Shown: one piece after another, positions 1,641 through 17,455 of the stretch
Layout: each line of letters opens with the position of its first letter
Numbering within the stretch: the first letter of the stretch is position 1
NCBI GenBank assembly: GCA_002709405.1
Contig: PAQV01000066.1
Coordinates: 1 to 64,000, forward strand
Reading direction: 5' to 3'
DNA from: Paracoccaceae bacterium
GTDB lineage: Bacteria; Pseudomonadota; Alphaproteobacteria; Rhodobacterales; Rhodobacteraceae
Length of the DNA stretch: 64,000 nt
The notes under the pieces: model-generated
What the model was told of the DNA's origin: nothing
Seen by the model: the letters and a program-made list of their open reading frames with translations, nothing else
The model's database searches: none
Position numbers and translations under genes: made by a program

Positions 1641-2693
1641 ATGTGTGACCATCATGGGACTCGTAGCTTTCCGGACCTGTCGGGTGTGGATCTTGACCGC
1701 CGCGGCTTTCTGAAAGCCGCCGGTGCCACGACGCTGACCCTGGGGATTTCCGGCGGGCTGGCCGGAGAGGCGCTGGCGGCGTCGTCGGTCAAGTCGACGC
1801 ACGGGACCGGCTTCTGCAACCTGCCGCTTTTCCTGAGCCACGCGCGCCAGACGGCCCAGGAAGATGGGCTGACGCTGGAATTCGTCAACACGCCCACCTT
1901 CGCCGAACACGTGACCTTCCTGGGCACCGGCCAGGTCGACGTGGGCGTTCTGCCCTACACCAGCTTCGTCGCGCTTTACGCGGCCGGCGCGCCGGTCAAG
2001 ATCGTCGGCGGCTCGGGCATCGAGGGCTGTGCGATCGTGTCCCAGCCGGGGCTGGATTCGGCCGAGAAGCTGAAGGGCAAGACCCTTGGCACGTTCCAGC
2101 TGGATACGCTGGAAGTTCTGCCCTACGACTATCTGAAAGCCAACGGTGTCGACATGGCGGACGTCAACGTCCGCTACGTGGGCAACACGCCCGAGGCGGT
2201 CGAGGCCTTCAAGGCCGGGGCGCTGGACTGGATCTGCACGATCGAACCCTATGCATCGAGCCTGCTGCAGGATGTCGAGGGCAGCCACCTGCTGTCGGAC
2301 GGCAAGGACATCTACGGGCCGAACTACACCGACTGCGTGTTGTGCGCCCGCGACAGCCTGATCGAATCCAACCCCGACGCGATCAAGGCGCTGATCAAGG
2401 CGATGATGAAATCGCAGCTGGCCTTTGAACAGGACACCCAGACGGTGCTGGATGAGGTGGTGGGCGTCTACTACAAGACGTCGATGGAAAACGCGGTGAT
2501 CGGGGCGACCAAGCAGCCTCCGATGGTGGACCAGCGGGCCAACACCGATTTCATCCTGGGCCGGACCGACAGCCTGATGGAGATGGGCTATATCAAGGAA
2601 AAGCCCGATGCGAGCGCGATCGACTGGTCGATGCTGGAAGAGGTGATCGCCGAGAACCCCGACCTGCACGCCCAGCTGAAGTACAAGTCCTAA
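1641..2693 (+). CDS. ABC transporter substrate-binding protein, NMT1/SsuA/TauA-like, Tat signal
   Basis: 350 residues. The N-terminus carries a twin-arginine signal (DRRGFLKAAG, about residues 17-26) followed by a hydrophobic stretch, implying export of a folded protein. The body fits the NMT1/THI5-SsuA-TauA group, which binds small nitrogen or sulfur compounds (sulfonates, nitrate, pyrimidine precursors), with a typical LKGKTLGTF segment near 135. Start chosen for the GGAGA at 1629-1633. It heads an operon with permease (1-base gap), ATPase and amidohydrolase, and has two copies of the island palindrome upstream. Given the neighbours, the ligand is more likely a cyclic ureide or amide than taurine (inference). 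Confidence 0.88.
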   Translation: MCDHHGTRSFPDLSGVDLDRRGFLKAAGATTLTLGISGGLAGEALAASSVKSTHGTGFCNLPLFLSHARQTAQEDGLTLEFVNTPTFAEHVTFLGTGQVDVGVLPYTSFVALYAAGAPVKIVGGSGIEGCAIVSQPGLDSAEKLKGKTLGTFQLDTLEVLPYDYLKANGVDMADVNVRYVGNTPEAVEAFKAGALDWICTIEPYASSLLQDVEGSHLLSDGKDIYGPNYTDCVLCARDSLIESNPDAIKALIKAMMKSQLAFEQDTQTVLDEVVGVYYKTSMENAVIGATKQPPMVDQRANTDFILGRTDSLMEMGYIKEKPDASAIDWSMLEEVIAENPDLHAQLKYKS

Positions 2694-2694
2694 G

Positions 2695-3603
2695 GTGGCG
2701 TACCAGGCGACCGACGAGAGGGGCAGCTCTGCTGCCCCCTCAGGGTTTCAGGCACTGCTTGGCCGGTTCAAGGGCCCGGCGGTTGCGTTCGGATGGACCA
2801 TCGTTTCGGTGGGCCTTTTCGCGCTGATCTGGGAGTTTCTCTGGCTGGTCGGGCTGGCGGATCCCAAGCTGCTGCCGCCGCCCCACGTGTTCATGGGCAA
2901 CATCGGCGAGCAGGCGCAATATTTCAACACGGCCCAACGCTGGCAGATCGGGGCCGATCCGACCGCCGGCCCGACGCCTTACGAAGCGGTGGCGATCACC
3001 GTCTTTTCGTCGACCATGCGGGTGCTGTCGGGGCTGACGCTGGCGGCCATCATCTCGATCAGCGTGGGCATCGCGATCCGCTACTGGAAGATGGTCGAAA
3101 ACCTGACGCTGCCGACGATCACCCTGCTGGCGCCGGTGTCGCCCGTGGCCTGGCTGCCGGTGGCGATCTTCCTGTTCGGGATCGGCAATGCGCCAGCGAT
3201 CTTCATGGTGTTCATTGCGCTGTTCTTCACGATGACCCTGGCCACGATCACCCAGATCGACAGCGTCAACGTCAATTACCTGAACGTGGCCCGGACCATG
3301 GGCGCGTCCAAGCGGCAGATCTACACGCGGGTGATCCTGCCGGCGATCCTGCCGGGCCTGCTGATCGTGCTGCGGCTGAACCTGTTCGGGGCGTGGATGG
3401 TCGTACTGATCGCCGAGGCGACGGGCGTGGGATACGGGCTGGGCCAGGTGATCATGCTGGCGCGCAACACGTTCAACCCGGGCCTGGTGTTCTTCACCAT
3501 CGTGCTGATCGGCCTGCTGGGCTTCTTCTTCGATTTCGGTCTGCGCATGGCGCAGCGCCGGTTGCTGTACTGGCTGCCCAAAGGTGCGGGGTCCCTGGCA
3601 TGA
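2695..3603 (+). CDS. ABC transporter permease, SsuC/TauC-like
   Basis: 302 residues with about six hydrophobic segments and the binding-protein-dependent permease signature near residues 200-220 (ARTMGASKRQIYTRVILP), the EAA loop that docks on the ATPase. GTG start one base after the upstream stop; the longer hydrophilic N-terminus (about 25 residues) is ordinary for the group. Its stop overlaps the ATPase start (ATGA). Inner-membrane channel for the importer fed by the Tat-exported binding protein. Confidence 0.9.
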   Translation: MAYQATDERGSSAAPSGFQALLGRFKGPAVAFGWTIVSVGLFALIWEFLWLVGLADPKLLPPPHVFMGNIGEQAQYFNTAQRWQIGADPTAGPTPYEAVAITVFSSTMRVLSGLTLAAIISISVGIAIRYWKMVENLTLPTITLLAPVSPVAWLPVAIFLFGIGNAPAIFMVFIALFFTMTLATITQIDSVNVNYLNVARTMGASKRQIYTRVILPAILPGLLIVLRLNLFGAWMVVLIAEATGVGYGLGQVIMLARNTFNPGLVFFTIVLIGLLGFFFDFGLRMAQRRLLYWLPKGAGSLA

Positions 3604-4394
3604 GCATTTCCGTTTCCTGCCGCAATGTCGGCAAGACCTGGGCCGCGGGCACGCCCCGCGCCCACGAGGCGCTGCGGGGCGTCGACCTGGACGTGGCCGA
3701 TGGCGAGTTCATCGTGCTGCTGGGGCCCTCGGGCTGCGGCAAGTCCACGCTGCTTTACCTGGTGGCGGGGCTGGAAGAGGCGACCTCGGGCGAGATCCTG
3801 TCCTATGACACGCCGGTGTCGGGGCCGGCCCCGGACCGCAGCCTGATCTTCCAGGAAACGTCTTTGTTTCCCTGGCTGAGCGTCTGGCAGAACGTCACCT
3901 TCGGCCTGAGCCTGGGCGACATGCCGGCGGCCGAACGGCGCAAGATCGCCGAAGAGGTGCTGACCCGGGTTGGCCTGCGCGCGGCCATCGACAAGCGCCC
4001 GCACGAATTGTCGGGGGGCATGCGCCAGCGGGTCGCCGTGGCCCGCGCCCTGGCGATGGAGCCGAAGGTCCTGCTGATGGACGAACCCTTTGCCGCGCTC
4101 GACGTGCAGACGCGGGCCAAGATGCAGGATTTCCTGCTGGATATCTGGCGCGGGTCCGGGGCCTCGGTCCTGTTCGTCACCCATCATATCGACGAGGCGG
4201 TGGCCCTGGCCGACCAGGTTGTCGTCTTTACCTCGCGGCCCGGCCAGATCAAGGAGATCGTCCCCGTCGACCTGCCGCGCCCGCGCGACCCCTTCGCGCC
4301 CGAGGCACAGGACCTGCGCCGCCACCTGACGGCCATCCTCAGCGCCGAGGTCGACAAGGCCTTCGCCGAACAGGAACAGGAGGCCGCGTCCTGA
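3600..4394 (+). CDS. ABC transporter ATPase, SsuB/TauB-like
   Basis: 264 residues, usual length. Walker A GPSGCGKS, Q-loop IFQETSLFPWL, signature [15 protein letters not shown], Walker B VLLMDEPFAALD and H-loop VTHHIDEAV are intact. The LFPWLSV Q-loop variant is typical of the nitrate/sulfonate/taurine importers. ATG overlaps the permease stop. It powers the importer and is co-transcribed with the amidohydrolase 41 bases downstream. Confidence 0.92.
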   Translation: MSISVSCRNVGKTWAAGTPRAHEALRGVDLDVADGEFIVLLGPSGCGKSTLLYLVAGLEEATSGEILSYDTPVSGPAPDRSLIFQETSLFPWLSVWQNVTFGLSLGDMPAAERRKIAEEVLTRVGLRAAIDKRPHELSGGMRQRVAVARALAMEPKVLLMDEPFAALDVQTRAKMQDFLLDIWRGSGASVLFVTHHIDEAVALADQVVVFTSRPGQIKEIVPVDLPRPRDPFAPEAQDLRRHLTAILSAEVDKAFAEQEQEAAS

Positions 4395-4435: not shown

Positions 4436-5971
4436 ATGACCACTCTTGTCCGTGGACGGACTGTATTCACCAAGCCCAATGACCGCCATCACTGGGAGGA
4501 AATCGACGACGGCGCGGTGCTGGTCGTCGACGGCAAGGTGGCGGCGATCGGCAGCTATGACACGCTGAAGGCGGAAAACCCCGATGCCCGCGAGCTGGGC
4601 AACGGCCGCCAGATCCTGATGCCGGGCTTCATCAACGGGCACCACCACGTAGGCCTGACCCCGGTGCAGCTGGGCTCGCCCGACATGCCACTGGAGCTGT
4701 GGTTCATCACCCGGCTGGTCTGCCGGGCGGTCGATCTGTACCTTGATACGCTGTATTCGGCGTTCGAGATGATCTCGTCGGGCGTGACCACGGTTCAGCA
4801 CATCCACGGCTGGATCCCGGGCAACCTGACCCAGGTCGAGGCCGGGGCCAACGAGGTCATCCGGGCCTATGAAGACATCGGCATGCGGGTCAGCTATTCC
4901 TTTGCCCTGCGCGACCAGAACCGGCTGGTCTACATGGACGACCAGGAATTTGTGAAGCTGCTGCCCGAAGACCTGCAGCCGCAGATGCGCAACCATTTCG
5001 ACCGGTTCGGCATGGACCTGGACGATTTCATGGACATGTTCAGCCACCTGCATGAGCAGCATCACAACAAGGACCGGGTGGGCATCCAGCTGGCGCCCGC
5101 GAACCTGCACTGGTGCTCGGACGAGGCGCTGGGGCGGCTGGCCGATGCCTCGTCGAAATACGATGCGCCGATGCACATGCACCTGGTCGAAACGGCCTTC
5201 CAGAAGGAATACGCCAAGCGGCGGGGCGGGGGCACGGCGCTGGAATATATCGACCGGTTCGGGCTGGTGGGGCCGAACCTGACGCTGGGCCACGGGGTCT
5301 GGCTGAGCGAATCCGACATCGAATGCGTGGCGGCCAAGGGCGCCCATATCTGTCACAATTGTTCGTCCAACTTCCGCCTGCGCTCGGGCGTGGGGCCGTT
5401 GAACGTGTGGGAAAAATACGGGGTCAACACGGCCATGGGCATGGACGAGGCGGGCATCAACGATGACCGCGACATGCTGCAGGAAATGCGCATGGTGCTG
5501 AACGCGCACCGCACGCCGGGCCTGGACGACAGCGTGCCGACGGCCGCGCAGGTGCTGCGCATGGGCACGGCCGGCGGGGCCCAGACGACGGCGTTCCGGG
5601 GCAAGATCGGCACGCTGGAGGTCGGGCAGGGGGCCGACATGGTGCTGATGGACTGGGACAAGCTGGCCTATCCCTACCTTGATCCCGATTACCCGGTGCT
5701 GGACGCGGTCATCCAGCGGGCGAAAAGCGACGGGGTCGACATGGTCATGTGCGCGGGCGACGTGATCTACGAGGGCGGAAAGTTCGCCCACGTCGACCGG
5801 ACCGCGGCGCTGGAAAAGCTGCGCCAGGACCTGACGCGGGCGCTGACCGACGAAGAGGTCGAACGGCGCGGGCTGTCCAAGGCGCTGCTGCCCCATGTGC
5901 AGAAGTTCTACGAAAACTACTTCGACGCCGACACGCACCAGCCGTTCTACCGCCAAAGCTCGATCTACTGA
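4436..5971 (+). CDS. Metal-dependent amidohydrolase, cytosine/s-triazine/8-oxoguanine deaminase type
   Basis: 511 residues, somewhat longer than the usual 430-480. Amidohydrolase landmarks: PGFINGHHH (metal-ligand histidines, 69-71), HMHLVET (about 245), GHGVW (about 285), CHNCSSNFRLRSG and GMDEAGINDDRD (about 338, active-site Asp). The family deaminates or hydrolyses ring C-N bonds of pyrimidines, triazines, guanine derivatives or creatinine. Start preceded by ACGGAGG. It is the last gene of the ABC operon, so its substrate is probably what the importer delivers. Creatinine or cytosine-like deamination feeding HyuAB would be coherent, but the sequence does not fix the substrate. Confidence 0.85.
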   Translation: MTTLVRGRTVFTKPNDRHHWEEIDDGAVLVVDGKVAAIGSYDTLKAENPDARELGNGRQILMPGFINGHHHVGLTPVQLGSPDMPLELWFITRLVCRAVDLYLDTLYSAFEMISSGVTTVQHIHGWIPGNLTQVEAGANEVIRAYEDIGMRVSYSFALRDQNRLVYMDDQEFVKLLPEDLQPQMRNHFDRFGMDLDDFMDMFSHLHEQHHNKDRVGIQLAPANLHWCSDEALGRLADASSKYDAPMHMHLVETAFQKEYAKRRGGGTALEYIDRFGLVGPNLTLGHGVWLSESDIECVAAKGAHICHNCSSNFRLRSGVGPLNVWEKYGVNTAMGMDEAGINDDRDMLQEMRMVLNAHRTPGLDDSVPTAAQVLRMGTAGGAQTTAFRGKIGTLEVGQGADMVLMDWDKLAYPYLDPDYPVLDAVIQRAKSDGVDMVMCAGDVIYEGGKFAHVDRTAALEKLRQDLTRALTDEEVERRGLSKALLPHVQKFYENYFDADTHQPFYRQSSIY

Positions 5972-6907: not shown

Positions 6908-8188
6908 TCATGGATCAGGAAAGAGCTCGGCCATGGCCCAGCCCGTCAGCACGTCGGTGGCCAGGGCGAAATCGGCAATGTCCATGTGTTCGTCAGGGTT
7001 GTGGCTGCCGTGATCGTTGCGCACGAAGATCATGCCCACGGGCACGCCCAGCCCGGCGAAGACCGCGCAATCGTGGCCCCCGCCCGAGGCGATGTCGGTA
7101 TGCGCGATGCCCGCGCGCGTGGCCGCCGCGTCCAACCCTGCGCGGATGGCCGGGCTCATCGGCGCGGGGGCGGCCCGGGTGGACGGCCCGGGGTCAATGG
7201 TCACGCCGCGCTTGGCCGAGATGCGGGCGGCCTCGCGCGCAAGGGTGGTTTCGAAGGCGTCGAGCGTGGCGGCGTCCTGGCTGCGCATGTCGATGGTGAA
7301 GCGGACCGCCCCGGGCACCTTGGTGACCCCGTGCATGGCCGGATCGGTGAAGAACTCGCCGAAGGTCAGGACCATGTCGCCGCCCGAGGAGTCGACGTCC
7401 AGCCAGAAGGTCTCTAGCGCCAGGATCAGCTCGGCCCCGGCGCGCACCGCGTCCTTGCGGGCGGCGCGGGGGACGGCGCCGGCGTGGGTGGTCTCTCCGG
7501 TGATACTCGCGAAGCGGTGGCGGATGTTGCCCCGGATGCCGGTGACGATGCCCACGGGAAAGCCGTCGTCCACCAGCACCGGCCCCTGTTCGATGTGCAG
7601 CTCGACAAAGGCGCGGATGCGGGCGGGGTCCAGCAGGCGGGTGGCGTCCCGGATCGGCTGCGGGTCGAACCCGGCCTCGGTCATGTGGTGGGCCAGCGTC
7701 TGCCCGCTGTCGGAGCGAAGCACCTTGTCCGGGGCATCGTGGGGCAGCAGGCCGAAGGCCGCGCGGCTGCCAAGGTAGTGCTGGGGGAACCAGATCATTT
7801 CCTCGGCCCGGATGGCCATCAGGGTCACGTCGCAGGGCGGTTGTGGTCCCCGGGCCAGGCGGTCCAGCATCTCGAGCCCGGCCAGGACCCCGGCGGCCCC
7901 GTCGAAATTGCCGCCGTGGGGCACGCTGTCCATGTGCGAGCCGGTCATCAGGGCGGGGGCCGAGCGGTCTCGGCCGGGCAGGGTGACGTAGAGGTTGCCC
8001 ACCGCGTCGGTGCGGTGTTCCAGTCCGATGTCGGCCGCCTCGCGCCGGATCATGTCATGGGCGGCGTTTTCCCGCGCCCCGAAGCTGGGGCGGGTGATGC
8101 CCGGGGGATCGCGGCCGATGCGCTCCAGTTCAGCAAAGAGGCGAGGGCTGCGGGAGAGGGCACCCGCGCCGGAAGGGGCGTCAGGCAT
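6908..8188 (-). CDS. M20-family Zn hydrolase: N-carbamoyl-amino-acid / allantoate amidohydrolase type
   Basis: 426 residues. Metal and active-site motifs of the AllC/AmaB/HyuC group: TGSHMDSVPHGG (about 80), RAEE followed by LGSRA, FVELHIEQGP (about 195), GGGHDC (about 373) and the terminal VRNDHGSHNPDEH. The family cleaves N-carbamoyl amino acids, ureidopropionate or allantoate, releasing CO2 and ammonia. Start taken at 8188 because it overlaps the end of the preceding gene by eight bases; the frame extends upstream only into that gene. It is the natural next step after a hydantoinase or allantoinase in the same island. Confidence 0.87.
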   Translation of the reverse strand: MPDAPSGAGALSRSPRLFAELERIGRDPPGITRPSFGARENAAHDMIRREAADIGLEHRTDAVGNLYVTLPGRDRSAPALMTGSHMDSVPHGGNFDGAAGVLAGLEMLDRLARGPQPPCDVTLMAIRAEEMIWFPQHYLGSRAAFGLLPHDAPDKVLRSDSGQTLAHHMTEAGFDPQPIRDATRLLDPARIRAFVELHIEQGPVLVDDGFPVGIVTGIRGNIRHRFASITGETTHAGAVPRAARKDAVRAGAELILALETFWLDVDSSGGDMVLTFGEFFTDPAMHGVTKVPGAVRFTIDMRSQDAATLDAFETTLAREAARISAKRGVTIDPGPSTRAAPAPMSPAIRAGLDAAATRAGIAHTDIASGGGHDCAVFAGLGVPVGMIFVRNDHGSHNPDEHMDIADFALATDVLTGWAMAELFPDP

Positions 8189-8912
8189 CGTAAAGCCGTC
8201 CCCAGCCGCGCACGCGCGCCGGATCCGCGCCAGCCGTCCGCATCGAGGTCCAGAGCGCGGTCGACACGCTGTCCAGAACCGGGATGCCGGTTTCCGCCTC
8301 GATGATTTCGGCCACGCCGGCGCCCCGGAAATTGGTGCAAAAGACCGCGATGGCATCGGGCTTGTCGGCGGCCACGGCCCGGCACATGTCCAGGATCTGG
8401 GCCTGGGAATAGGTCGCGAAGGAATAATTGCCCGCGTCGTTCAGGTGGCGCTCGGCCACGACCTCGAACCCTTCCGAGCGGTAGTTGGCCAGGATCGCGG
8501 ACTGGATTTCCGGCAGGTAGGGGGTGACGAAGGCCAGCCGTTTGGCGCCAAGGCGGCCGATGATCTCGTTCATCCCCAGCACGGCGGAACAGGCCCTGAC
8601 GCCGGTTCGGGCCTCGATCTCGGCGATCAGGGCGCGGTCGGTGTCAAAGCCCAGCCAGCCCGACGAGGTGCCGTTCCAGCAGATGGATTGGACCTGCGCA
8701 TCGGCCAGAAGCTCGGCCGCGGCAAGCATGGGGTCGTTGGTGAACTGCCCCAGCGCGTCGTCGTCCATGGAGATTTTCAGCACGCGGAACCGCCCGAAAT
8801 GGGCGCTGACATCGGGCAGGTCCGCCAGCATGGCGGCGGTCAGGGGTTCCAGGACGGTGTTGGATGACGGGGTCAGCATGCCCAGGCGGGTGCTGGCCAA
8901 TTCCTCTGTCAT
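8181..8912 (-). CDS. Asp/Glu racemase superfamily protein, arylmalonate decarboxylase / maleate isomerase-like
   Basis: 243 residues. N-terminal TPSSNTVLEP resembles maleate isomerases. In the superfamily two cysteines face each other; here the first position reads WNGTSS (Gly81) and the second FCTNFRG (Cys192). As I recall, maleate isomerase keeps both, whereas arylmalonate decarboxylase has Gly at the first (a GTS motif) and a single catalytic Cys at the second. This protein therefore matches the decarboxylase pattern. Possible reactions: decarboxylation of a malonate-type acid or a one-cysteine isomerisation. It overlaps the carbamoyl hydrolase by 8 bases; its start faces a divergent gene only 17 bases away. 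Confidence 0.72.
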   Translation of the reverse strand: MTEELASTRLGMLTPSSNTVLEPLTAAMLADLPDVSAHFGRFRVLKISMDDDALGQFTNDPMLAAAELLADAQVQSICWNGTSSGWLGFDTDRALIAEIEARTGVRACSAVLGMNEIIGRLGAKRLAFVTPYLPEIQSAILANYRSEGFEVVAERHLNDAGNYSFATYSQAQILDMCRAVAADKPDAIAVFCTNFRGAGVAEIIEAETGIPVLDSVSTALWTSMRTAGADPARVRGWGRLYDA

Positions 8913-8929
8913 GGGGGATACCTTTCGTT

Positions 8930-9577
8930 ATGAAACCTGTGCTTCTGATCAATCCCAATGGCTCGGCCGCGGCGACGCAGGCCATGGTGGGCATCGCCCG
9001 GCGTCACATCGCGGGCGTCGAGGGATGGACCAACCCGGATGGGCCGCCGATGATCACCGATGCGGTGGCCCTGGCCGAGGCGGCCGCCCAGGTCGGCGCG
9101 GCCATCCTGCCCGAGGCGCGGGGGGTGATCGTGTCGGCCTTCGGCGATCCGGGGGCAGAGGCCTTGGCCGACCGGCTGGATGTGCCGGTCGTGGGGATCG
9201 GGGCGGCGGCGGCCCGGGCGGCGTGCGTGGGGGAGCGGTTCGCCGTGGCCACGACGACGCCAGACCTTGAGGTGCCCGTCGATGCCCTGATGCGCGCCCA
9301 TGCGCAGGGGGCCGCGTACCTGGGATGTTTCCTGAGCCAAGGCGATCCGCTGGCCCTGTTGGGGGATCCCGCCGCGCTGGATGCGGCGCTGATCGGCGCG
9401 GTGCGGCGGGCGGCCGAAGCCGGGGCGGATCACGTGATTATCGGGGGCGGGCCATTGGCCGAGGCCGCAGACAGGATCGCGGACCAGGTGCCGGTCACGC
9501 TGGTGCAACCCTTGCCCGAGGCCTGCCGGGCCCTGCTGGCGGCGATGGATGGGGCGCTTAGCCGGTCGCATCCGTAG
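8930..9577 (+). CDS. Asp/Glu/hydantoin racemase-family protein lacking both catalytic cysteines
   Basis: 215 residues, family fold by LLINPNGSAAAT at the N-terminus, VSAFGDPG (about 68-75) and IIGGGPLAE (171-178). The positions that hold cysteine in hydantoin and allantoin racemases (CFGDP and LGCAGM) are Ala70 and Gly173, so ordinary two-base racemisation is not expected. ATG chosen at 8930, with GGGGGA upstream. It is a single + strand gene nested between - strand genes: 17 bases from one divergent start and overlapping the 3' end of its paralogue by 20 bases. Function unknown; a lyase, decarboxylase or binding role is possible. Confidence 0.78.
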   Translation: MKPVLLINPNGSAAATQAMVGIARRHIAGVEGWTNPDGPPMITDAVALAEAAAQVGAAILPEARGVIVSAFGDPGAEALADRLDVPVVGIGAAAARAACVGERFAVATTTPDLEVPVDALMRAHAQGAAYLGCFLSQGDPLALLGDPAALDAALIGAVRRAAEAGADHVIIGGGPLAEAADRIADQVPVTLVQPLPEACRALLAAMDGALSRSHP

Positions 9578-10328
9578 ATCCGGCGATGATGGTGGCCAGG
9601 TCCGGGCCAAGCCCGGTCGATCCCTTCCGGGCCGGGCGCGCGGCGCGACGGGCATAAGACGGTTGCATACGGGCCAGGCCAAGGGCCTGCACGACGGCGG
9701 CCGAGATCGGGTCGACCAGGATGCCGGGCGCGTCGCTGCCGATCTGCTGGGCCAGCCCGGCGAGGGGCGCTCCGCCCAGGATCACCACGTCGGCCCCGTC
9801 CTCGCAAACGGCCCGCTCGCACAGGGCGATCAACTCGGCGCGCAGGGTGACGGCCACGTTGTCCAGGTGGTCGGGCATGTGGTCGGGGCAGCGGACCCCG
9901 GTAAAGCGGGCCTCTAGCCCGGTCTGGCGCACGCAATCGACGTACCAGCGGGCCATGACCGGCGAAAAGGTGACGATGGAAAAGCGTTCGCCCAGGAGGG
10001 CGGCGGACATGATGGAGGCCTCGGCCATGCCGACGATGGGCATGTCGAAAAGTTCACGCGCGGCGACGATGCCCGGGTCGCCGAAGGCGGCGATGATGGC
10101 CGCGTCATGGCGGCTGCCGTCGCGGGCCAGCACGTCCTTGGCCAGCATGTCGAGCGCCTCGGCCCCGGCCAGCTGGGCCTCGGCGCGGGAGGCGATGTAG
10201 GGCACGCCGCGCGTGGCGGTGCGCGAGGTGACGGTGACATCGGGTCCGGCAAGGGCGCTGGCGACCGCGTGCATCTGGTCGGTCATGGCCTGCGTCGTGT
10301 TCGGATTGATCAGCAGAAGTCGCGTCAT
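9558..10328 (-). CDS. Asp/Glu/hydantoin racemase-family protein lacking both catalytic cysteines (paralogue)
   Basis: 256 residues; LLINPNTTQAMT, then IIAAFGDPG (about 78-86) and VILGGAPLAG (182-191). The two family cysteines are replaced by Ala81 and Gly186, and their spacing (105 residues) is what the family normally shows, so the alignment is secure. It shares this double loss with the neighbour at 8930-9577. Start overlaps the amidase stop (ATGA), so it belongs to the - strand operon. Automated labels such as allantoin or hydantoin racemase should be doubted; it may act on another bond of the same substrate class. Confidence 0.8.
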   Translation of the reverse strand: MTRLLLINPNTTQAMTDQMHAVASALAGPDVTVTSRTATRGVPYIASRAEAQLAGAEALDMLAKDVLARDGSRHDAAIIAAFGDPGIVAARELFDMPIVGMAEASIMSAALLGERFSIVTFSPVMARWYVDCVRQTGLEARFTGVRCPDHMPDHLDNVAVTLRAELIALCERAVCEDGADVVILGGAPLAGLAQQIGSDAPGILVDPISAAVVQALGLARMQPSYARRAARPARKGSTGLGPDLATIIAGSTDATG

Positions 10329-11662
10329 GCCAGGCCTTTCAGCAGGGGTTCAAGCCGGCGGGCCAGGCCCATTAGCGGGCCGTCCTGGCCGGCCGGGGCG
10401 ATCAGCTGCAGGCCAAGGGGCAGGCCGGCGGCCGTGGTGCCGCAGGGGATCGACAGGGCCGGGACGCCGGCGTGGTTGATCTGCGGGGTAAAGGCCGCGT
10501 GGTCGCGGGGCGCGGCGGGCTGGCCGGCGATGGTGGCGGGGTCGTTCAGCTCGGCCGGCCAGGCGGGGCAGGGCGTGGTGGGGGTGGCGATGAAACGGTG
10601 GCGGTCCAGTGCGGCACAAAGGGTTTCGCGCATCTTGTGGGACACCTGGTGGGCGGCGGCGACCTCGACCCCGGTCAGGGCCATACCCCGGGCGATCTGG
10701 TCGGCCAGGGCCGGGTCGAAGAGGTCGGGCGTGGCGGTCCAGGCCGGGCCGAACAGCTGGGCGAGCCCGGCATATTGCAGGGGCTGGATGTCGTGGCCCC
10801 GGATGCCGTCGGGCCAGGGGATGTCGGCCGGGGTGATCTGCACGCCGCCGTCGCGCAGCACGTCGCAGACCCGGGCGAAGTTCTCGGCCACTTGCGCGTC
10901 CAGGACCTGGCCGGTGCCCAGGTCTGCCGAGACGGCCAGGGCCAGTGTCCCGGGGTCGGTGGCGGGCACGCCGGCCAGGACCTCCATCGCCAGGGCGATG
11001 TCGCCCATGTCGCGGGCAATGGGGCAGATGACAGATATCCCCCAGACCGGTTCGTCGAAGCCGGGGCCGTAGGGCACAAGGTCCTGCGTGGGTTTCAGCC
11101 CGCAGAGGCCGGTGTGGGCGGGCGGGCGGCGCGATGAGCCCCCGGCATCGGTGCCCAGGGCCAGCGGCACGATCCCCGCCGCGACGGCAGCGACGGACCC
11201 GCCAGAGGAGCCTCCGGCCGTCATCGAGGGGTCGACCGGGTTGCGGGTGATCCCGTAGAGCGGTGACAGGGTGGCGCCCTTGCAGGCGAATTCCGAACAG
11301 GTGGCGATGCCCAGGACGATGGCCCCGGCCTGGCGCAGGCGGCGGACGGCGATGGCGTCGTCGGGGGCGATATGATCGGCGAAGAGGCGCGAGCCTTGCG
11401 TGATCGGCAGGCCCTTCACCCAGATGTTGTCCTTGATCAGGACCGGCACGCCGGCCAGCGGCAGGTCCTCTCCGGCAGCCAGCCGGGCGGCGACGGTTTC
11501 GGCCTCGTCCAGGGCGGCCGGGTTCAGCACGGTGATGGCATTGATCGCCGGGTTGCGCGCGCTGGCCCTGTCCTGGGCGGCCAGGACCGCGTCGCGGGGC
11601 GAGGCCTCGCCCCGGCGGATGGTGGCGGCAAGGTCCCGGGCGGTGAGGTCGGCCAGGCTCAT
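10325..11662 (-). CDS. Amidase-signature family hydrolase
   Basis: 445 residues. The Ser-cisSer-Lys triad is visible: Lys77 in LIKDN, Ser152 in GGSSGGS and nucleophile Ser176 in GTDAGGSSRRP (canonical GGSIR is GGSSR here). The family hydrolyses carboxamides, including half-amides of dicarboxylates and carbamoyl compounds. It is translationally linked on both sides (ATGA overlaps with the PuuE-like gene and the racemase homologue), so it acts in the same pathway. A half-amidase acting after a ring-opening imidase, or allophanate/biuret-type hydrolysis, are the two readings that fit best. Confidence 0.87.
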   Translation of the reverse strand: MSLADLTARDLAATIRRGEASPRDAVLAAQDRASARNPAINAITVLNPAALDEAETVAARLAAGEDLPLAGVPVLIKDNIWVKGLPITQGSRLFADHIAPDDAIAVRRLRQAGAIVLGIATCSEFACKGATLSPLYGITRNPVDPSMTAGGSSGGSVAAVAAGIVPLALGTDAGGSSRRPPAHTGLCGLKPTQDLVPYGPGFDEPVWGISVICPIARDMGDIALAMEVLAGVPATDPGTLALAVSADLGTGQVLDAQVAENFARVCDVLRDGGVQITPADIPWPDGIRGHDIQPLQYAGLAQLFGPAWTATPDLFDPALADQIARGMALTGVEVAAAHQVSHKMRETLCAALDRHRFIATPTTPCPAWPAELNDPATIAGQPAAPRDHAAFTPQINHAGVPALSIPCGTTAAGLPLGLQLIAPAGQDGPLMGLARRLEPLLKGLA

Positions 11663-12573
11663 GCGGCGGGCCCGTGGGCCCGGGCCCAGGCGGCGGCGAT
11701 GTCCCGCCGGGGGGCGATCCAGACGCCGTCGTGATGGGACATATGGGCCAGCACCGTTTCCAGCCCGCCGATCCGGGCGGGCCGGCCGATGGTGCGCAGG
11801 TGCAGGCCGATCGACAGCATCCGGGCGGCCTGGGCGCCTTCGGCATAAAGCCGGTCGAAGGCGGCGATCACGTAATCCGAGAAATCCCGGGCGTGCACGA
11901 AGGCGCCGCCGGGCGCAAAGCGCATGTCGTTGGTATCAAAGGCATAAGGCAGCACCACGTGGTCGCCGTCCATGTAGGGCGTGTCGTCGTCGTAGGCGTT
12001 GCTGTCATAGGCAAAGCCGCCGTGGGCCTTCAGCAGCTGGCGCGTCTGCGGAGAGGTCGCCGAGCGCGTGTGCCAGCCGACCGGAGCGACGCCCGTTAGC
12101 TCGGTCAGGGTGGCGTGGGTGCGGGCGATGATCTCGGCCTCCTGGTCGGGGGGCATCCCGGCATGGGTTTCCCAGCGCCAGCCATGGCACGACACCTCGT
12201 GGCCCCGCGCGATCACGTCCTGCATCAGCCAGGGCAGGCGCTGCGCCGCGCGCCCGCAGGTGGAAAAGGTGGCTTTGGCATTATGGGCCTCCAGCGCCGC
12301 CACGATGCGGCCGTAGCCCCGGCGGGGGCCATAACCGAAATGGCTTTCCATGCAGGGATCGGGCGCGCCGATGACTTCGGCCCGGGCCTCGTAGACGAAC
12401 TCGTTGCGCTCGTCGCCCTCGGCCACCGACAGCTCGGCCCCTTCCTCGACATTGACCACGAAGGACACGGCCAGGCGTGCCCCGTCCGGCCAGCAGGGAG
12501 CGGGGTCGTTGCCCCAGTACCCGCGCAGGTCCCGGGTCATGGATGGGCTTTCGGACGGCTGGTCGGCTGGCAC
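11659..12573 (-). CDS. Polysaccharide-deacetylase-fold hydrolase, PuuE allantoinase-like
   Basis: 304 residues. SFVVNVEEGAEL near the N-terminus, CHGWRWETH in the middle and a late HLRTIG segment match the PuuE/allantoinase branch of the NodB fold rather than true chitin deacetylases; no signal peptide, so cytoplasmic. Known members open allantoin, and I recall one cyclic imide hydrolase in this fold. GTG start at 12573 chosen because AGGAGG lies 7 bases upstream (12581-12586); the next ATG (12540) has a poor RBS and the farther ATG (12624) falls inside the operator. First gene of the - strand run, with a perfect 20-bp palindrome 40 bases upstream. Confidence 0.83.
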   Translation of the reverse strand: MPADQPSESPSMTRDLRGYWGNDPAPCWPDGARLAVSFVVNVEEGAELSVAEGDERNEFVYEARAEVIGAPDPCMESHFGYGPRRGYGRIVAALEAHNAKATFSTCGRAAQRLPWLMQDVIARGHEVSCHGWRWETHAGMPPDQEAEIIARTHATLTELTGVAPVGWHTRSATSPQTRQLLKAHGGFAYDSNAYDDDTPYMDGDHVVLPYAFDTNDMRFAPGGAFVHARDFSDYVIAAFDRLYAEGAQAARMLSIGLHLRTIGRPARIGGLETVLAHMSHHDGVWIAPRRDIAAAWARAHGPAA

Positions 12574-12613
12574 GCGGGATCCTCCTGGCTTGGTGGTATC
12601 TTTGGCTGGGGCC

Positions 12614-12633
12614 GAAAATGGCATGCCATTTTC
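12614..12633. promoter_or_regulatory. Perfect 20-bp palindromic operator upstream of the PuuE-like operon
   Basis: GAAAATGGCATGCCATTTTC is its own reverse complement over all 20 bases, the best copy of the island motif. It lies 41-60 bases upstream of the GTG start on the - strand, where a repressor or activator would act on the promoter of the six-gene run. Confidence 0.8.
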
Positions 12634-12893
12634 AGACAGTCAGAGCGAAATCGCCGGAAACCGGACAGGAAAATTGTCTGTGGTCAAAACTTTGGCACTT
12701 GCCCGGGGGCTGCCGGGCGGGGCTGGGCGGGGCGTTTGGCCGCGACAAGACCGCGGATTTTGGGCCGAATGTGCCGCTTTCCACGGTCCGGCCTTTCAAA
12801 AATGCCACCCGATTGGTCATTTCCCGGCCGCTTTGCATGCGCTCGGGTCATTTTCCCGCAGCCCCCGCGTCAAACGCCCGGATCAGTTGCCCT

Positions 12894-12913
12894 GAAAATG
12901 GCATGCCGTTTGG
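12894..12913. promoter_or_regulatory. Palindromic operator upstream of the TRAP transporter operon
   Basis: GAAAATGGCATGCCGTTTGG: left half identical to the perfect copy at 12614-12633, right half with two changes. Core TGGCATGCC is intact. It ends 52 bases before the TRAP binding-protein ATG. Confidence 0.75.
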
Positions 12914-12965
12914 CTGAACACACAACCACGCTCGCAGAAGCAGAACTCGCAGGGGGATACCACTG

Positions 12966-13940
12966 ATGAAATACACGCTCCGCACCGCCGCCGGCGCCGT
13001 CGCGGCCTTGGCCCTGTCGGCCGGGCTGGCCGCCGCCGAGAACTGGATCATGGCGTCCGGCTACCCGGACGACAACTTCCACACCCAGAACATCAAGATG
13101 TTCATCGAGGACGTGGCCGCGACCTCGGACCTGACCATCGACCTGCAATCCAATGACACGCTGATCAAGCTGGACGCGATCAAGACCGCCGTGCAGCGCG
13201 GCCAGGTGCCGATCGGCGAAATCCGCCTGGGCGTCTATGGCAACGAGGACCCGATGAACGTGCTGGCCGGTCTGCCCTTCGTGGCCTCGACCTATGCCGA
13301 GGCCTGGCTGCTGAAGGACCTGCAGAAGGGCTATTTCGAGGACACCTTCGGCGAGGCCGGCCTGATGATCCTGTATTTCAGCCCGTGGCCGGGGCAGGGG
13401 TTCTACACGGCCGATCCGGTCAGCGGGCTGGCCGATTTCGACGGCAAGAAGCTGCGGATCTATTCGACGGCGACCCAGAAGATGGGCGAGATGCTGGGCT
13501 TCCAGGCCACCATCCTGCCGTTTGCCGAAATCCCCCAGGCCTTTTCGACGGGCCTGATCGAGGCGCTCTTCACCTCGCCCCAGACGGGGATCGACATCCA
13601 GGCCTGGGACAACACCAAGGCCTTCACCTATGCCGGCGCGATCTTTTCCAAGAACGCGGTGGTGGTGAACAAGGCGATGTTCGACAGCCTGTCGCCGGAA
13701 ACCCAGTCGGCCGTGCTGGCCGCGGCCGAGGCGGCCGAGTTGCGGGCCTGGGAAATGAGCGCGTCGACCACCGAGGCGCAGATCGGCATCCTGGCGGAAA
13801 ACGGCATGACCACGGCGGATGCGCCGCCTGAAGTGCTGGAAAAGATGGTCGAAATCGGCGGGGCGATGATGGACGACTGGCGCGAGCAGGCCAGCCCCGA
13901 GGCGATCGCCGTGCTGGACCGCTACCTGGCGCTGCGTTGA
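12966..13940 (+). CDS. TRAP transporter substrate-binding protein (DctP family)
   Basis: 324 residues with a Sec signal peptide (hydrophobic stretch ending LAAAEN, cleavage about residue 22). The conserved GKKLRIYST region (about 158-166) carries the arginine that in DctP proteins pairs with a ligand carboxylate, so an acidic ligand is expected. RBS GGGGGA 8 bases before ATG. Followed after 13 bases by the small permease and then the large permease. Candidate ligands are N-carbamoyl amino acids, ureido acids or half-amides, given that it shares the island operator. Confidence 0.9.
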   Translation: MKYTLRTAAGAVAALALSAGLAAAENWIMASGYPDDNFHTQNIKMFIEDVAATSDLTIDLQSNDTLIKLDAIKTAVQRGQVPIGEIRLGVYGNEDPMNVLAGLPFVASTYAEAWLLKDLQKGYFEDTFGEAGLMILYFSPWPGQGFYTADPVSGLADFDGKKLRIYSTATQKMGEMLGFQATILPFAEIPQAFSTGLIEALFTSPQTGIDIQAWDNTKAFTYAGAIFSKNAVVVNKAMFDSLSPETQSAVLAAAEAAELRAWEMSASTTEAQIGILAENGMTTADAPPEVLEKMVEIGGAMMDDWREQASPEAIAVLDRYLALR

Positions 13941-13953
13941 TCCGGGGGCCGCG

Positions 13954-14517
13954 ATGCAAAGCGACATCTTGACGACGGGGCGGCCCGGTGCCCTGCGCCG
14001 GGGGCTGGACATGCTTTATGCCGTCTCGGGCGCGCTGTCGGGCGTGTTCCTGTTCGGCATCGCGGCCACGATCATCGCCCAGGTCGGCGGCCGGTTGGCC
14101 GGGCTGACCATCGATTCCACCGAGACGGCCGGGTTCTGCCTGGCCGCCTCTACCTTCCTGGGCCTGGCCTATACGCTGCGCCACGGCGGCCATATCCGCG
14201 TGACCCTGGCGATCCGCTATGCCGGCCCGCGCCTGCGCCGCTGGATCGAGCTGTGGTGCGTGACGCTGGCGGCCCTGGCCACGCTGTACTTCATTTACTG
14301 GGCCGGAGAATTCGTCCTGTTTTCCTGGAAATATAATGAGTTGAGCCCCGGTCTTCTGGCGATCCCCTTCTGGATCCCGCGTTCGGCCATGGTTGTCGGG
14401 GCGGCGGTGTTCTTCGTCGCGCTGGTCGACGAATGGGTCACCATCTGGCGCGGCGACCTGCCGGCCTATGAAACCAATGCCGAAACGGTGCTGGCACCGG
14501 AAGAGCCTCTTTCGTGA
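13954..14517 (+). CDS. TRAP transporter small permease (DctQ family)
   Basis: 187 residues with four predicted membrane segments (about 30-50, 63-80, 103-125, 140-165), the DctQ layout. It lies between the binding protein and the large permease; its stop overlaps the GTG start of DctM (GTGA). Forms the membrane complex with DctM that drives sodium- or proton-coupled uptake of the captured acid. Confidence 0.88.
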   Translation: MQSDILTTGRPGALRRGLDMLYAVSGALSGVFLFGIAATIIAQVGGRLAGLTIDSTETAGFCLAASTFLGLAYTLRHGGHIRVTLAIRYAGPRLRRWIELWCVTLAALATLYFIYWAGEFVLFSWKYNELSPGLLAIPFWIPRSAMVVGAAVFFVALVDEWVTIWRGDLPAYETNAETVLAPEEPLS

Positions 14518-15815
14518 CCGATCCTTCAAGCATTGCCATCATCCTGTTCGCGCTCATGGCGCTGCTGCTGGCCAGCGGCATCTGGGTGGCCGTCAGCCTG
14601 ACCGCCGTGGGGGCGGTGGCGCTTGCGGTGTTTTCGCCGGCCCCGGCGGGGTCGCTGCTGGCCTCGACCGTGTGGGATGCCAGCTGGAACTGGACGCTGA
14701 CCGCCCTGCCGCTGTTCATCTGGATGGGAGAGATCCTGTTCCGCACCCGCATGTCGCAGGACATGTTCCACGGGCTCAGTCCGATCGTCGGGCGGCTGCC
14801 CGGGGGGCTGTTGCACGTCAACGTGCTGGGCTGCGGGGTGATGGCGGCCGTGGCGGGGTCGAGTGCGGTGACCTGCGCGACCGTCGGCCGGATGTCCGTG
14901 CCCGAGCTGAAGAAGCGCGGCTATGACGAGCGGCTGACCATCGGGACGCTGGCGGGGTCGGGCACGCTGGGCCTGCTGATCCCGCCGTCGATCATGCTGA
15001 TCGTCTATGGCGTGATCGCCCAGCAATCCATCTCGCGCCTGTTCATTGCCGGCGTGGTGCCCGGCGTGATGCTGATCGGGCTGTTCATGGCCTACGTGGC
15101 GTTCCGGGCCTGGTTGAACCCGGCCCTGGCCCCGCGCGAAACCGTCAGCCTGGGCTGGGCAGAGACCCTGCGCCGCACCCGCCTGCTGATCCCGGTGGTC
15201 GTGCTGATCTTCGTGGTCATCGGGTCGATCTACGGCGGCTTCGCCACGCCGACCGAGGCCGCGACGATGGGCGTGCTGGGGGCCCTGGGCCTGGCGGCCT
15301 GGTCGCGCAGCCTGACATGGGCGTCCTTCGTGGATGCGCTGATGGGGGCTGTCCGGACCTCGACCATGATCGCCTTCATCCTTGTGGGCGCGGCGTTCCT
15401 GTCCATCGCAATGGGTTTCACAGGTGTCCCCAGGGTCATCGCTGCCGAGGTCGATACCTGGAACCTCAACAGCTACCAGCTGCTGGTCGTGCTGACGCTG
15501 CTCTACATCGTGCTGGGCTGTTTCCTGGACGGGGTGTCGATGATGGTGCTGACGGCCTCGGTCGTGCTGCCGATGGTCAAGGCCGCGGGCATTGACCTGT
15601 TGTGGTTCGGCATCTTCACGGTGATCGTCGTCGAGATGGCCCAGATCCCCCCGCCGGTGGGCTTCAACCTCTTCGTTCTGCAATCGCTGACCGGGCGCGA
15701 CATCCTTCAGGTCACCCGCGCCTCGATCCCGTTCTTCTTCCTGATGATCTTCGGGATCGTGCTGATCGTGATCTTCCCGCAGATCGTGCTCGCCCCGGTC
15801 GAGCTGATGCGCTAG
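14514..15815 (+). CDS. TRAP transporter large permease (DctM family)
   Basis: 433 residues, the usual length, about 12 hydrophobic segments, with typical DctM stretches such as AAVAGSSAVTCATVG (about 107-121), GSGTLGLLIPPS and PTEAA. GTG start in the DctQ stop. Its TAG shares the palindrome CTAG with the TAG of the convergent hyuB-like gene, so the two units meet with no spacer. Confidence 0.93.
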   Translation: MTDPSSIAIILFALMALLLASGIWVAVSLTAVGAVALAVFSPAPAGSLLASTVWDASWNWTLTALPLFIWMGEILFRTRMSQDMFHGLSPIVGRLPGGLLHVNVLGCGVMAAVAGSSAVTCATVGRMSVPELKKRGYDERLTIGTLAGSGTLGLLIPPSIMLIVYGVIAQQSISRLFIAGVVPGVMLIGLFMAYVAFRAWLNPALAPRETVSLGWAETLRRTRLLIPVVVLIFVVIGSIYGGFATPTEAATMGVLGALGLAAWSRSLTWASFVDALMGAVRTSTMIAFILVGAAFLSIAMGFTGVPRVIAAEVDTWNLNSYQLLVVLTLLYIVLGCFLDGVSMMVLTASVVLPMVKAAGIDLLWFGIFTVIVVEMAQIPPPVGFNLFVLQSLTGRDILQVTRASIPFFFLMIFGIVLIVIFPQIVLAPVELMR

Positions 15816-17455
15816 CGCGGGTCGTAGGCCCGCGCGCCCGCGTCCGAGATCAGCTGTTCCTCCAGGTCGGCGGCCAGGGCGTCCGGGTCGCGGGTTTCGG
15901 GCGCACCGATGCCGCCGCCGCCCGGGGTCAGCACCACCAGCCGCTCGCCCGGGGGCACGGTCTGAAACCCCTTGCCCTGGAACACCCGGCCCGAGGCCAG
16001 TCCGACCGCCCCCGCCGCGCCATCCTGCCCGCCGTCGTGGCCGCGCGCGGGATGGTCGATGCGGTCATAGGCGGCCAGCAGTTCGAACGGCTCACCGATG
16101 CGGCTTTCGACCTCGATCACCTGGCCCAGCCCGCCGCGATGGCGGCCCGCGCCCCCCGAATCCGGGCGCAGCTCCTTCTTCCAGAAGACCAGCGGGGTGA
16201 CGGCCTCGGCGATTTCCACCGGCGTGCCCTTCACGCCTGAAGGATAGGCCGTGGCCGACAGCCCGTCGAGCGTCGGCCGTGCGCCGGTGCCGCCGTTCGA
16301 GGTGACGGCCATGGTGAACCCGTAATTGCCCCCGTCGCGCGCGGCCACGCCCCGCACGTTCAGGTTCCACAGGCACGAGGTCCCCTCGGCCGGGGTCCGG
16401 TCTGGGGCGGCCTGGCGCAGGGCGCCGAAGACCACGTCGGGCAGCATCTGGCCGACCACGTGGCGTGAGGCCACGGGCGCGGGCTTGATGGCATTGACGA
16501 TGGATCCCTCGGGCCCGGTCACGCGGAAGGGCTTCAGGGACCCTGCATTGTTGGGCACGTCCGGGGCGATCGCGCAGCCCAGGCCAAAGACGGTATAGGC
16601 CGTGGTATAGGACAGGGGCACGTTGATGCCGCGACCGACCTGGGGCGAGGTGCCGTCGAAATCCACGGTCACGCCGGTGTCGTCGATGGTCAGGCTCAGC
16701 GCCAGGGTGACCGGCGCGTCATAGCCGTCGACGACCATCTGGTTGCGCCAGGTGCCCTTGGGCAGCCGGGCGATTTCCGCCATCACGGCCGCCTCGGAGC
16801 GGGTCAGGATATGGGCGGCCAGGGTATCCAGGTCGGCCAGGCCGAACTCGCTCATCATCTCGGACAGGCGCTTGCAGCCCACGTCGTTGCAGGCGGCCAG
16901 CGAATAGACGTCGCCCTCGGTGTCGATGGGCAGGCGGGTGTTGGCCCGGATCATGGCCATCAGCGTGTCGTTCAGCACGCCGCCTTCGGCCAGTTTCAGG
17001 AAGGGGATCGACAGGCCCTCCATGAAGACATCCGTGGCATCCGGGCCAAAGCCGATGCCGCCGATGTCCATCAGGTGCGAGGTGCAGGAAAACAGCCCGA
17101 CCAGGTTGCCGTCGTGGAAGGCCGGGGTGGTCAGGACGAAGTCGTTCAGGTGGCCGGTGCCCATCCAGGGATCGTTGGTGATGTAGATGTCGCCCGGCTG
17201 CATGGTGTCGCAGGGGAAATGGTCGAGGAAATGCTTCACCGATTCCGCCATCGAATTGACGTGGCCCGGGGTGCCCGTCACGGCCTGGGCCAGCATCCTG
17301 CCCTGGGTGTCGAAGACCCCGGCCGACAGGTCGCCGCATTCGCGCACGATGGGGCTGAAGGCGGTGCGCAGCAGCACCTGGGCCTGTTCCTCGACAACGG
17401 CGATCAGCCTTTGCCACATGATCTGCAAATCGAGGGGCGAGAGCGTGTCGGTCAT
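15812..17455 (-). CDS. hyuB: Hydantoinase / N-methylhydantoinase B subunit (HyuB, ATP-dependent type)
   Basis: 547 residues, the family length. The hydantoinase_B domain spans the protein; recognisable stretches are FSPIVRECGDLSAGVFD (about 31-47), HVNSMAESVKHF and NDPWMGTGHLND (about 109-120). With HyuA it forms the 5-oxoprolinase/acetophenone-carboxylase/N-methylhydantoinase class, which uses ATP to activate a ring amide or ketone. The ATG overlaps the HyuA stop (TGATG). Substrate candidates from context are hydantoins such as N-methylhydantoin. Confidence 0.9.
   Translation of the reverse strand: MTDTLSPLDLQIMWQRLIAVVEEQAQVLLRTAFSPIVRECGDLSAGVFDTQGRMLAQAVTGTPGHVNSMAESVKHFLDHFPCDTMQPGDIYITNDPWMGTGHLNDFVLTTPAFHDGNLVGLFSCTSHLMDIGGIGFGPDATDVFMEGLSIPFLKLAEGGVLNDTLMAMIRANTRLPIDTEGDVYSLAACNDVGCKRLSEMMSEFGLADLDTLAAHILTRSEAAVMAEIARLPKGTWRNQMVVDGYDAPVTLALSLTIDDTGVTVDFDGTSPQVGRGINVPLSYTTAYTVFGLGCAIAPDVPNNAGSLKPFRVTGPEGSIVNAIKPAPVASRHVVGQMLPDVVFGALRQAAPDRTPAEGTSCLWNLNVRGVAARDGGNYGFTMAVTSNGGTGARPTLDGLSATAYPSGVKGTPVEIAEAVTPLVFWKKELRPDSGGAGRHRGGLGQVIEVESRIGEPFELLAAYDRIDHPARGHDGGQDGAAGAVGLASGRVFQGKGFQTVPPGERLVVLTPGGGGIGAPETRDPDALAADLEEQLISDAGARAYDPR

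Follow-up and report, generated by a model that had tools for sequence, protein, structure and literature searches.

Conserved relatives of hydantoin/allantoin racemases with alanine and glycine at the two catalytic-cysteine sites

Introduction

The allantoin racemase of Klebsiella pneumoniae (KpAllR, structure 3qvj) has Cys79 and Cys184 as catalytic residues and contacts its substrate through Asn12, Thr118 and Thr119; in a related protein, OpaE, residues 49-59 are described as a loop shaping the active site (PMC12661438). There are precedents for a change of reaction after cysteine loss, namely arylmalonate decarboxylase (AMDase) with its Gly74/Cys188 layout (PMC4996985) and the dehydratases of the proline racemase superfamily (PMC4113996). 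The natural role of AMDases is reported to be little known, the gene neighbours listed for them being enolase-superfamily (MR/MLE) genes, transporters and transposases (PMC4996985). Here we analyse two racemase-like proteins, P1 and P2, in which both cysteines are replaced, and a neighbouring AMDase-like protein, P3. Their genes lie in the first 64,000 nucleotides (the window) of contig PAQV01000066.1 of a Paracoccaceae bacterium (assembly GCA_002709405.1):

P1: 8930..9577, forward strand, 215-residue hydantoin/allantoin-racemase-like protein with Ala70/Gly173 at the catalytic-cysteine sites
P2: 9558..10328, reverse strand, 256-residue hydantoin/allantoin-racemase-like protein with Ala81/Gly186 at the catalytic-cysteine sites
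P3: 8181..8912, reverse strand, 243-residue arylmalonate-decarboxylase-like protein with the single-cysteine layout of AMDase (PF17645 Amdase, 74 bits)

The open reading frames of P1 and P2 are both present at these coordinates; the mechanical reading frame of P1 opens earlier, at 8864, with a sensible ATG further in at 8930. The two genes are convergent, with a 20-base overlap of their 3' ends.

Results

Replacement of both catalytic cysteines in a retained fold

P1 and P2, about 32% identical to each other, belong to PF01177 (96.2 and 145.9 bits, respectively, for a cut-off of 31). HMMER, confirmed by multiple alignment, places Cys79 of 3qvj on Ala70 of P1 and Ala81 of P2, and Cys184 on Gly173 and Gly186, the correspondence being taken from sequence alignments within the shared fold, not from model coordinates. 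Neither protein has the catalytic pair of KpAllR, as an earlier note on this DNA had proposed, and the FGDPG and GGxPL motifs that it described do flank the replaced sites in both.

The AlphaFold2 models show the two-domain pseudo-symmetric racemase fold. For P2 (predicted local distance difference test, pLDDT, 86.4) the match to 3qvj has a Z of 29.1 and a root-mean-square deviation of 2.2 over 242 residues; for P1 (pLDDT 93.8) Z is 24.9 to 3qvj over 211 residues and 27.1 to 5lg5 over 209. The structural comparison with allantoin racemases called for by the earlier note gives a fold match (Z 29 for P2, 25-27 for P1). In the Foldseek rows listed, folds other than that of the Asp/Glu racemases turn up only at ranks 43, 48 and 49.

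The cleft scaffold is kept, including the substrate-binding Asn12 of KpAllR, which is Asn10 in 88/88 P2-clade and 12/12 P1-clade rows (the clades are defined below). At the positions of Thr118 and Thr119, the P1 clade has Thr in 12/12 and 10/12 rows, and the Cys/Cys rows have Thr in 21/29 at each; the P2 clade has Thr or Ser in 87/88 rows at the first position and Phe in 88/88 at the second. Another cysteine as substitute was considered and rejected, no Cys column being fixed in either clade: the best columns reach 60/88 rows in the P2 clade (residues 110 and 132, the latter being Cys in the window P2) and 8/12 in the P1 clade.

Distribution and conservation of the Ala/Gly pair

Homology searches without a motif filter found a P2-clade member in 11 of 295 genomes of the same family (E 2e-53 or better) and a P1-clade member in 12 of them (E about 2e-37 or better), and all these rows are Ala/Gly at the two sites. 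At the class level, over 385 genomes, a P1 relative at E 1e-25 was found in the window genome and four others. The five P1-like rows from these four class-level genomes and from one Paracoccus plasmid are Ala/Gly as well (5/5), and L022, which groups with P1 in trees, is Gly/Gly.

In a larger set, the pair is Ala/Gly in all 88 P2-clade and all 12 P1-clade rows, the P2 count being biased at site 1 as most of its rows came from a scan with Ala81 in one of two seed patterns. Clades were defined by identity (at least 40% to P2, at least 44% to P1), so that distant P1-like rows such as L022 stand outside. The best 80 P2 relatives in a scan of named genome contigs (47-63% identity) are, by record title, mostly from Alphaproteobacteria, with a few from Beta- and Gammaproteobacteria. 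Over the 156 aligned rows, reference included, the pairs are Ala/Gly (106), Cys/Cys (29), Ser/Gly (7), Cys/Gly (6), Ile/Gly (4), Ala/Ala (2), Gly/Gly (1) and Val/Gly (1), shares that mirror the search and not nature.

Purifying selection acts on the P2 clade. Among close P2 relatives, the ratio of nonsynonymous to synonymous substitution rates (dN/dS) ranged from 0.03 to 0.20 with a median of 0.126 over 66 pairs; the set consists of 20 loci picked for closeness, in pairs more than 78% identical, and the window copy, with no close enough relative, lies outside it.

A few further arrangements were seen. A second non-Cys/Cys homologue of some kind is present at 13/80 P2 loci. In L074, L150 and L171, three differing non-Cys/Cys homologues (Ala/Gly, Ala/Ala, Ile/Gly) stand side by side; L074 and L150 may be one locus seen via two collections. 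A Ser/Gly clade of the same family is represented by L023, L025, L031 and L101-L104, and in L101-L104 the Ser/Gly homologue precedes the TRZ amidohydrolase of the P2 cluster.

History of the cysteine loss

A rooted tree of 70 rows was built with the two catalytic columns left out and a Pyrococcus hydantoin racemase (Cys/Cys) as outgroup. Its rows derive from the 156, thinned to 95 at 70% identity, with four rows flagged as long and L105_739 excluded; 19 rows represent the P2 clade. All 50 non-Cys/Cys rows fall in one group with moderate support (84/79), in a tree whose bootstrap had not settled and whose outgroup is a single long branch. In a quick tree of 95 rows, the Cys/Cys rows lie on one side of a branch with a support of 82. 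Within the non-Cys/Cys group, site 2 is occupied by Gly in all rows but one, which has Ala, and site 1 takes several states. For this pattern of one group with a nearly constant site 2 and a variable site 1, the simplest account is a single loss of the second cysteine, shared by the group as a whole, with later change at the first site. The P1 and P2 clades are separate in the tree, and the topology test does not reject a joint clade of the two that includes the Gly/Gly row (p-AU 0.112). The parallel loss in two paralogues assumed by the earlier note is not established, because there is a single non-Cys/Cys group and a single Ala/Gly clade is not rejected.

Conserved residues of the two clades

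The residues invariant in the 88 P2-clade rows include Asn8, Asn10, Thr16, Thr37, Tyr44, Glu50, Asp75, Ala81, Asp84, Arg91, Phe121, Trp128 and Gly186; Arg48 and Tyr129 are each found in 85/88. Tyr44, Phe121, Trp128 and Tyr129 occur in 0/29 Cys/Cys rows, and Tyr44 is found in 2/6 Cys/Gly rows. By alignment, the stretch Tyr44-Glu50 of P2 would lie in the loop equivalent to OpaE 49-59. Tyr44, Arg48, Glu50, Phe121, Trp128 and Tyr129 are absent or rare in P1, whose polar residues fixed in 12/12 rows are Asn8, Asn10, Thr16, Thr34, Asp73, Thr108 and Thr110, several of them family-wide; Arg182, Asp118, Asp139, Asp151 and Tyr130 of P1 are found in 11/12.

Gene company of P2

Neighbouring genes were counted at the best 80 P2 loci and in 20 control regions around Cys/Cys racemases. 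The controls were picked from Cys/Cys rows of the window's own family and the P2 loci from wider taxa; the p values, uncorrected for the 14 gene kinds tested, come from the loci with full flanks (59/80 P2 loci, 17/20 controls). Five gene kinds were significantly more frequent near P2: a P3-like gene (41/80 versus 0/20, p 5e-5), dihydropyrimidinase (47/80 versus 5/20, p 0.013), an amidase like the window's (31/80 versus 0/20, p 0.004), a PuuE-like gene (23/80 versus 0/20, p 0.017) and a GntR regulator (50/80 versus 0/20, p 0.017 or lower). An earlier pass had given 43 P3-like genes instead of 41, gene-picking having changed once the dihydropyrimidinase query was added; the dihydropyrimidinase was counted in 32 loci when genes were clustered within 7 kb and in 47 when homology was scored across the entire locus. 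Of the 80 P2 loci, 70 have one or more of five hydrolase types, against 6/20 controls.

The earlier note had suggested counting co-occurrence with HyuAB or PuuE. The PuuE part was borne out by the figures above; a HyuAB partnership of P2 was not found, HyuAB being commoner in the controls (1/80 versus 3/20, p 0.033). OppD is also commoner in the controls than at P2 loci (p 0.0017).

The association with P3 is seen at the genome level too. P3 (E 1e-40 or better) is present in 17/295 family genomes, i.e. in 8/11 genomes with P2 and 9/284 others (p 2.9e-9), and by the listed coordinates it lies on P2's contig within about 10 kb in 6/11 P2 genomes. P2 relatives were also found in 10 plasmid records. 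Five of these plasmid regions were inspected (Arthrobacter, Klebsiella, Salipiger, Paraburkholderia and Diaphorobacter). Each has a P3-like gene and an annotated hydA close by, and the P2 relatives are Ala/Gly (5/5). The plasmid sets of P2, dihydropyrimidinase and P3-like genes thus span Alpha-, Beta- and Gammaproteobacteria and an actinomycete. The 470-residue neighbour of P2 was scanned against NCBIfam in two copies only, and both pass the dihydropyrimidinase/D-hydantoinase cut-offs: L100 (NF009941, 723.4 bits versus 647; TIGR02033, 498.3 versus 393) and L131 (764.8 and 535.1).

One side observation concerns the Cys/Gly homologues, which keep the first cysteine only, the reverse of the layout seen in AMDase. 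The regions around them in L080 and L094-L096 carry PuuE-like and TRAP genes very like window 11659-15815.

The AMDase-like protein P3

The AMDase residue criteria were taken from PMC4996985 (pocket residues and Gly74/Cys188). In 54 P3-like rows, the AMDase positions are Gly74 in 54, Thr75 in 54, Tyr126 in 54, Cys188 in 53 (one gap) and Ser76 in 48, and the window P3 has the equivalents of all five. The pocket is different. At AMDase Pro15, Gly189 and the hydrophobic-pocket positions Leu40, Val43, Tyr48, Val156 and Met159, the window P3 has Ser, Thr, Arg, Val, Met, Asn and Phe, respectively, so that only Val43 is kept; over the 54 rows, Pro15 is replaced by Ser in 54, Leu40 by Arg in 54, Val156 by Asn in 52 and Met159 by Phe in 51.

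Three known identities were considered for P3. It was not accepted as a true AMDase, as it scores far below the NF052327 cut-off (62.8 bits versus 225) with most hydrophobic-pocket residues gone, nor as EutA, its best NCBIfam match (TIGR02990, 71.8 bits versus a cut-off of 318). Maleate isomerase was not accepted either. The second Cys region aligns, and the alignments disagree at the first site: HMMER puts Cys77 of P3 on the first Cys of the isomerase, whereas the GTS motif puts Gly there; MAFFT misplaced that stretch of the isomerase. The residues retained and exchanged suggest that P3 could decarboxylate a small, polar, malonate-like compound without a cofactor.

Gene company of P1 and the rest of the locus

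An oligopeptide-type ATPase scoring 459-623 bits to the window gene at 387-1364 is present in 7/9 P1-clade regions (L081-L089, window's family); an eighth has one at 234 bits, and the 20 controls reach at most 294. Amidase-family genes occur in 8/9 regions (57-234 bits), and in L089, the ninth, a PuuE-like gene takes their place. Among four farther P1 relatives, three have a PuuE-like neighbour and the fourth a TRZ amidohydrolase; one of these loci repeats the convergent P1-P2 arrangement of the window. At least five other genomes (L068, L069, L140, L161 and L183; a raw count) have P1-like and P2 genes near each other, so that the two share surroundings, and each also occurs without the other nearby. 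The shared different chemistry that the earlier note offered beside a binding role is doubtful, as the six residues fixed or nearly fixed in P2 (Tyr44, Arg48, Glu50, Phe121, Trp128 and Tyr129) are absent or rare in P1 and, in the window's own family, most of the P1 orthologues examined lie by an oligopeptide-type ABC transporter.

The other features of the window locus are the following:

Oligopeptide-type ABC transporter ATPase gene: 387-1364
NMT1-type ABC transporter (binding protein, permease, ATPase): 1641..4394, forward strand, upstream of the TRZ amidohydrolase; binding protein PF13379/PF09084
TRZ/ATZ-type amidohydrolase: 4436..5971, forward strand, PF01979
M20 hydantoinase/carbamoylase-family amidase-like hydrolase: 6908..8356, reverse strand, TIGR01879 280 bits (cut-off 204)
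Amidase-signature amidase: 10325..11662, reverse strand, PF01425, 4-base overlap with the start of P2
PuuE-like candidate cyclic amide hydrolase of polysaccharide-deacetylase fold: 11659..12624, reverse strand, match to PuuE 3cl6 of the PDB, 247 bits
Presumed TRAP transporter (DctP, DctQ, DctM): 12966..15815, forward strand

The direct neighbours of P2 are here the amidase and the PuuE-like gene, with no dihydropyrimidinase. The TRZ, PuuE-like and M20 proteins all score below equivalog cut-offs: the PuuE-like protein reaches 268.9 bits for the PuuE allantoinase model TIGR03212 (cut-off 424.6), and the M20 protein, slightly below NF009527 (453.8 versus 461), passes only the broad TIGR01879. The M20 reading frame is listed with a mechanical start that falls within P3; the real start probably lies further in. 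Homologues of the TRZ amidohydrolase (764-781 bits) adjoin P2 and P3 in four Methylobacterium loci. A HyuA/HyuB pair at 15812-19665 is caprolactamase/oxoprolinase-like (456 and 210 bits for NCBIfam cut-offs of 1000) and lies outside the conserved P2 neighbourhood. The window genome, of 5.4 Mb, has ten PF01177 places, nine of them above the family cut-off.

The start codons of P1 and P3 are divergent and 17 bases apart, in the window (8912-8930) and in L068 (11976-11994), which is from another genus; the promoters must therefore lie inside the opposite genes, or the transcripts overlap.

Discussion

P1 and P2 are real, well-conserved and, as far as searched, undescribed variants of a known family, which is not proof of new chemistry. 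No description of a cysteine-free branch or of the gene module was found in the open-access literature, which is weak evidence of absence. On balance, we favour the view that they form an old, separately conserved and remodelled non-thiol branch of the hydantoin/allantoin racemases of PF01177, in which P2 would help to break down cyclic ureides or imides, probably by catalysing a reaction other than racemization. Because both catalytic thiols are gone, two-thiol 1,1-proton transfer would be impossible, and we infer that P2 does not work as a classical racemase. The cleft of P2 would be re-lined by Tyr44, Arg48, Glu50, Phe121, Trp128 and Tyr129 and would most likely bind a planar cyclic ureide or imide, or the ring-opened product; P2 may then catalyse a different step (lyase, hydrolytic or decarboxylative) through non-thiol groups, and P3, next to it, may act as the decarboxylase of a malonate-like intermediate. 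For P1, a part in a related amide or ureide pathway is probable, either as an enzyme or only as a binder. The atrazine strain ZXY-2 was followed as a substrate hint and led nowhere.

The main rival to this enzymatic reading, and a more serious one for P1 than for P2, is a binding role: both proteins would be non-catalytic pseudo-enzymes that hold the cyclic substrate or product as sensors, chaperones or hydrolase subunits. The absence of both acid/base residues, the position of the genes among hydrolase and transporter genes and, for P1, a set of fixed polar residues limited to the two Asn, four Thr and one Asp listed above, several of them family-wide, all agree with it. We nevertheless judge it less likely, as P2 has the clade-specific reactive residues Tyr44 and Arg48 and is found repeatedly, across phyla, as a gene of its own within a compact group that includes two enzymes, which is what one would expect of an enzyme, and P1 itself keeps Arg182, Asp118, Asp139, Asp151 and Tyr130 in all rows but one. 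That P1 and P2 are still racemases or epimerases, working through other acid/base groups (e.g. Tyr, Glu or Lys) or merely assisting an easily exchanging alpha-proton, would be in keeping with the retained fold and substrate-binding Asn. The alpha-protons of hydantoins do exchange readily. A Ser/Cys pair is moreover reported to epimerise still in the proline racemase superfamily (PMC4113996). Ala and Gly, however, are unable to carry a proton, and OpaE with Ser at both cysteine sites is reported to keep 0.3% activity or less (PMC12661438), which makes retained racemization improbable.

Decay is the least credible of all. Losing both catalytic residues is a classic sign of it, and P1 and P2 could in principle be duplicates that are losing their function. 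Decay is nonetheless unlikely, indeed close to negligible in our estimate, because the same residue pair is found in 88/88 and 12/12 rows and dN/dS among P2 relatives is about 0.13 (median 0.126 over the 66 pairs, window copy outside the set); the neighbourhoods are conserved as well. For P1, the counter-evidence is orthologue conservation only, dN/dS covering P2 relatives. Here the earlier note, which had argued against decay, was right.

Several points weigh against the enzymatic reading of P2 and P1. The pocket placement of Tyr44, Arg48 and Glu50 comes from sequence alignment and the loop description in PMC12661438. Two of the marker residues need not be new catalysts: Phe121 is common to the Ser/Gly clade (7/7), and the Glu50 position is usually acidic in Cys/Cys racemases (Asp in 23/29). 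Lys235 is present in 86/88 P2 rows; its C-terminal stretch had been trimmed from most of the other rows, so that the count bears on conservation within the P2 clade and not on specificity to it. In P1, no His, Glu, Lys or Arg is fixed in 12/12 rows. As to gene company, four kinds of window gene were not significantly enriched at P2 loci relative to the controls: TRZ amidohydrolase (18/80 versus 1/20, p 0.098), M20 (8/80 versus 0/20, p 0.33), NMT1 (9/80 versus 0/20, p 0.19; all nine loci have a nearby TRZ amidohydrolase) and TRAP DctM (p 0.058). Finally, 9/80 P2 loci have none of the five hydrolases and no P3.

The gene company of P2, namely ring-opening hydrolases (dihydropyrimidinase, PuuE-like protein and amidase) and P3, does point to a testable pathway. 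More tentatively, and with rather less confidence than in the reading of P2 itself, we suggest that dihydropyrimidinase, P2 and P3, often with a PuuE-like protein or amidase and at times with P1, may make up an undescribed widespread catabolic module degrading a cyclic ureide or imide, in which P2 would represent a new, thiol-free reaction type on the racemase fold and P3 a natural role for AMDase-like decarboxylation. If P2 is catalytic, it would be an example from nature of a racemase scaffold that switched to a different reaction once both acid/base groups had gone, and concrete candidate substrates would follow from its recurrent partners. Whatever its activity, one branch of the subfamily has lost one or both cysteines in clade-wise patterns (Cys/Gly, Ser/Gly, Ala/Gly, Ile/Gly), a warning against the name 'hydantoin racemase' for such proteins in genome annotation. 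The AMDase-like P3 in hydantoinase-type clusters is, in turn, a lead to the natural role of such decarboxylases.

To conclude, the locus can be set beside the known systems. With AllR/HpxA (3qvj, 5lfd) and HyuE, P1 and P2 have in common the fold, the INPN motif including the substrate-binding Asn, and FGDPG; they differ by Ala and Gly in place of both catalytic cysteines. P2 differs further from AllR by Phe121, which replaces the substrate-binding Thr119 throughout its clade (88/88), and by aromatic residues absent from the 29 Cys/Cys rows. OpaE (9qbx) belongs to the same subfamily and has the same fold as P2 and P1 (Z 20.7 and 19.5, respectively); unlike them, it is reported to keep and need Cys90/Cys199 (PMC12661438). 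AMDase, from the same superfamily, is described as working with one cysteine (Gly74/Cys188; PMC4996985), the layout seen in P3. In P1 and P2, by contrast, the second cysteine is gone too. The proline racemase superfamily is another family, with an unrelated fold. Its dehydratases (t3HypD) provide an analogy only, that of a two-cysteine racemase scaffold in which replacement of Cys by Thr or Ser is described as accompanying a changed reaction (PMC4113996). The replacements there keep hydroxyl side chains, whereas P1 and P2 have Ala and Gly.

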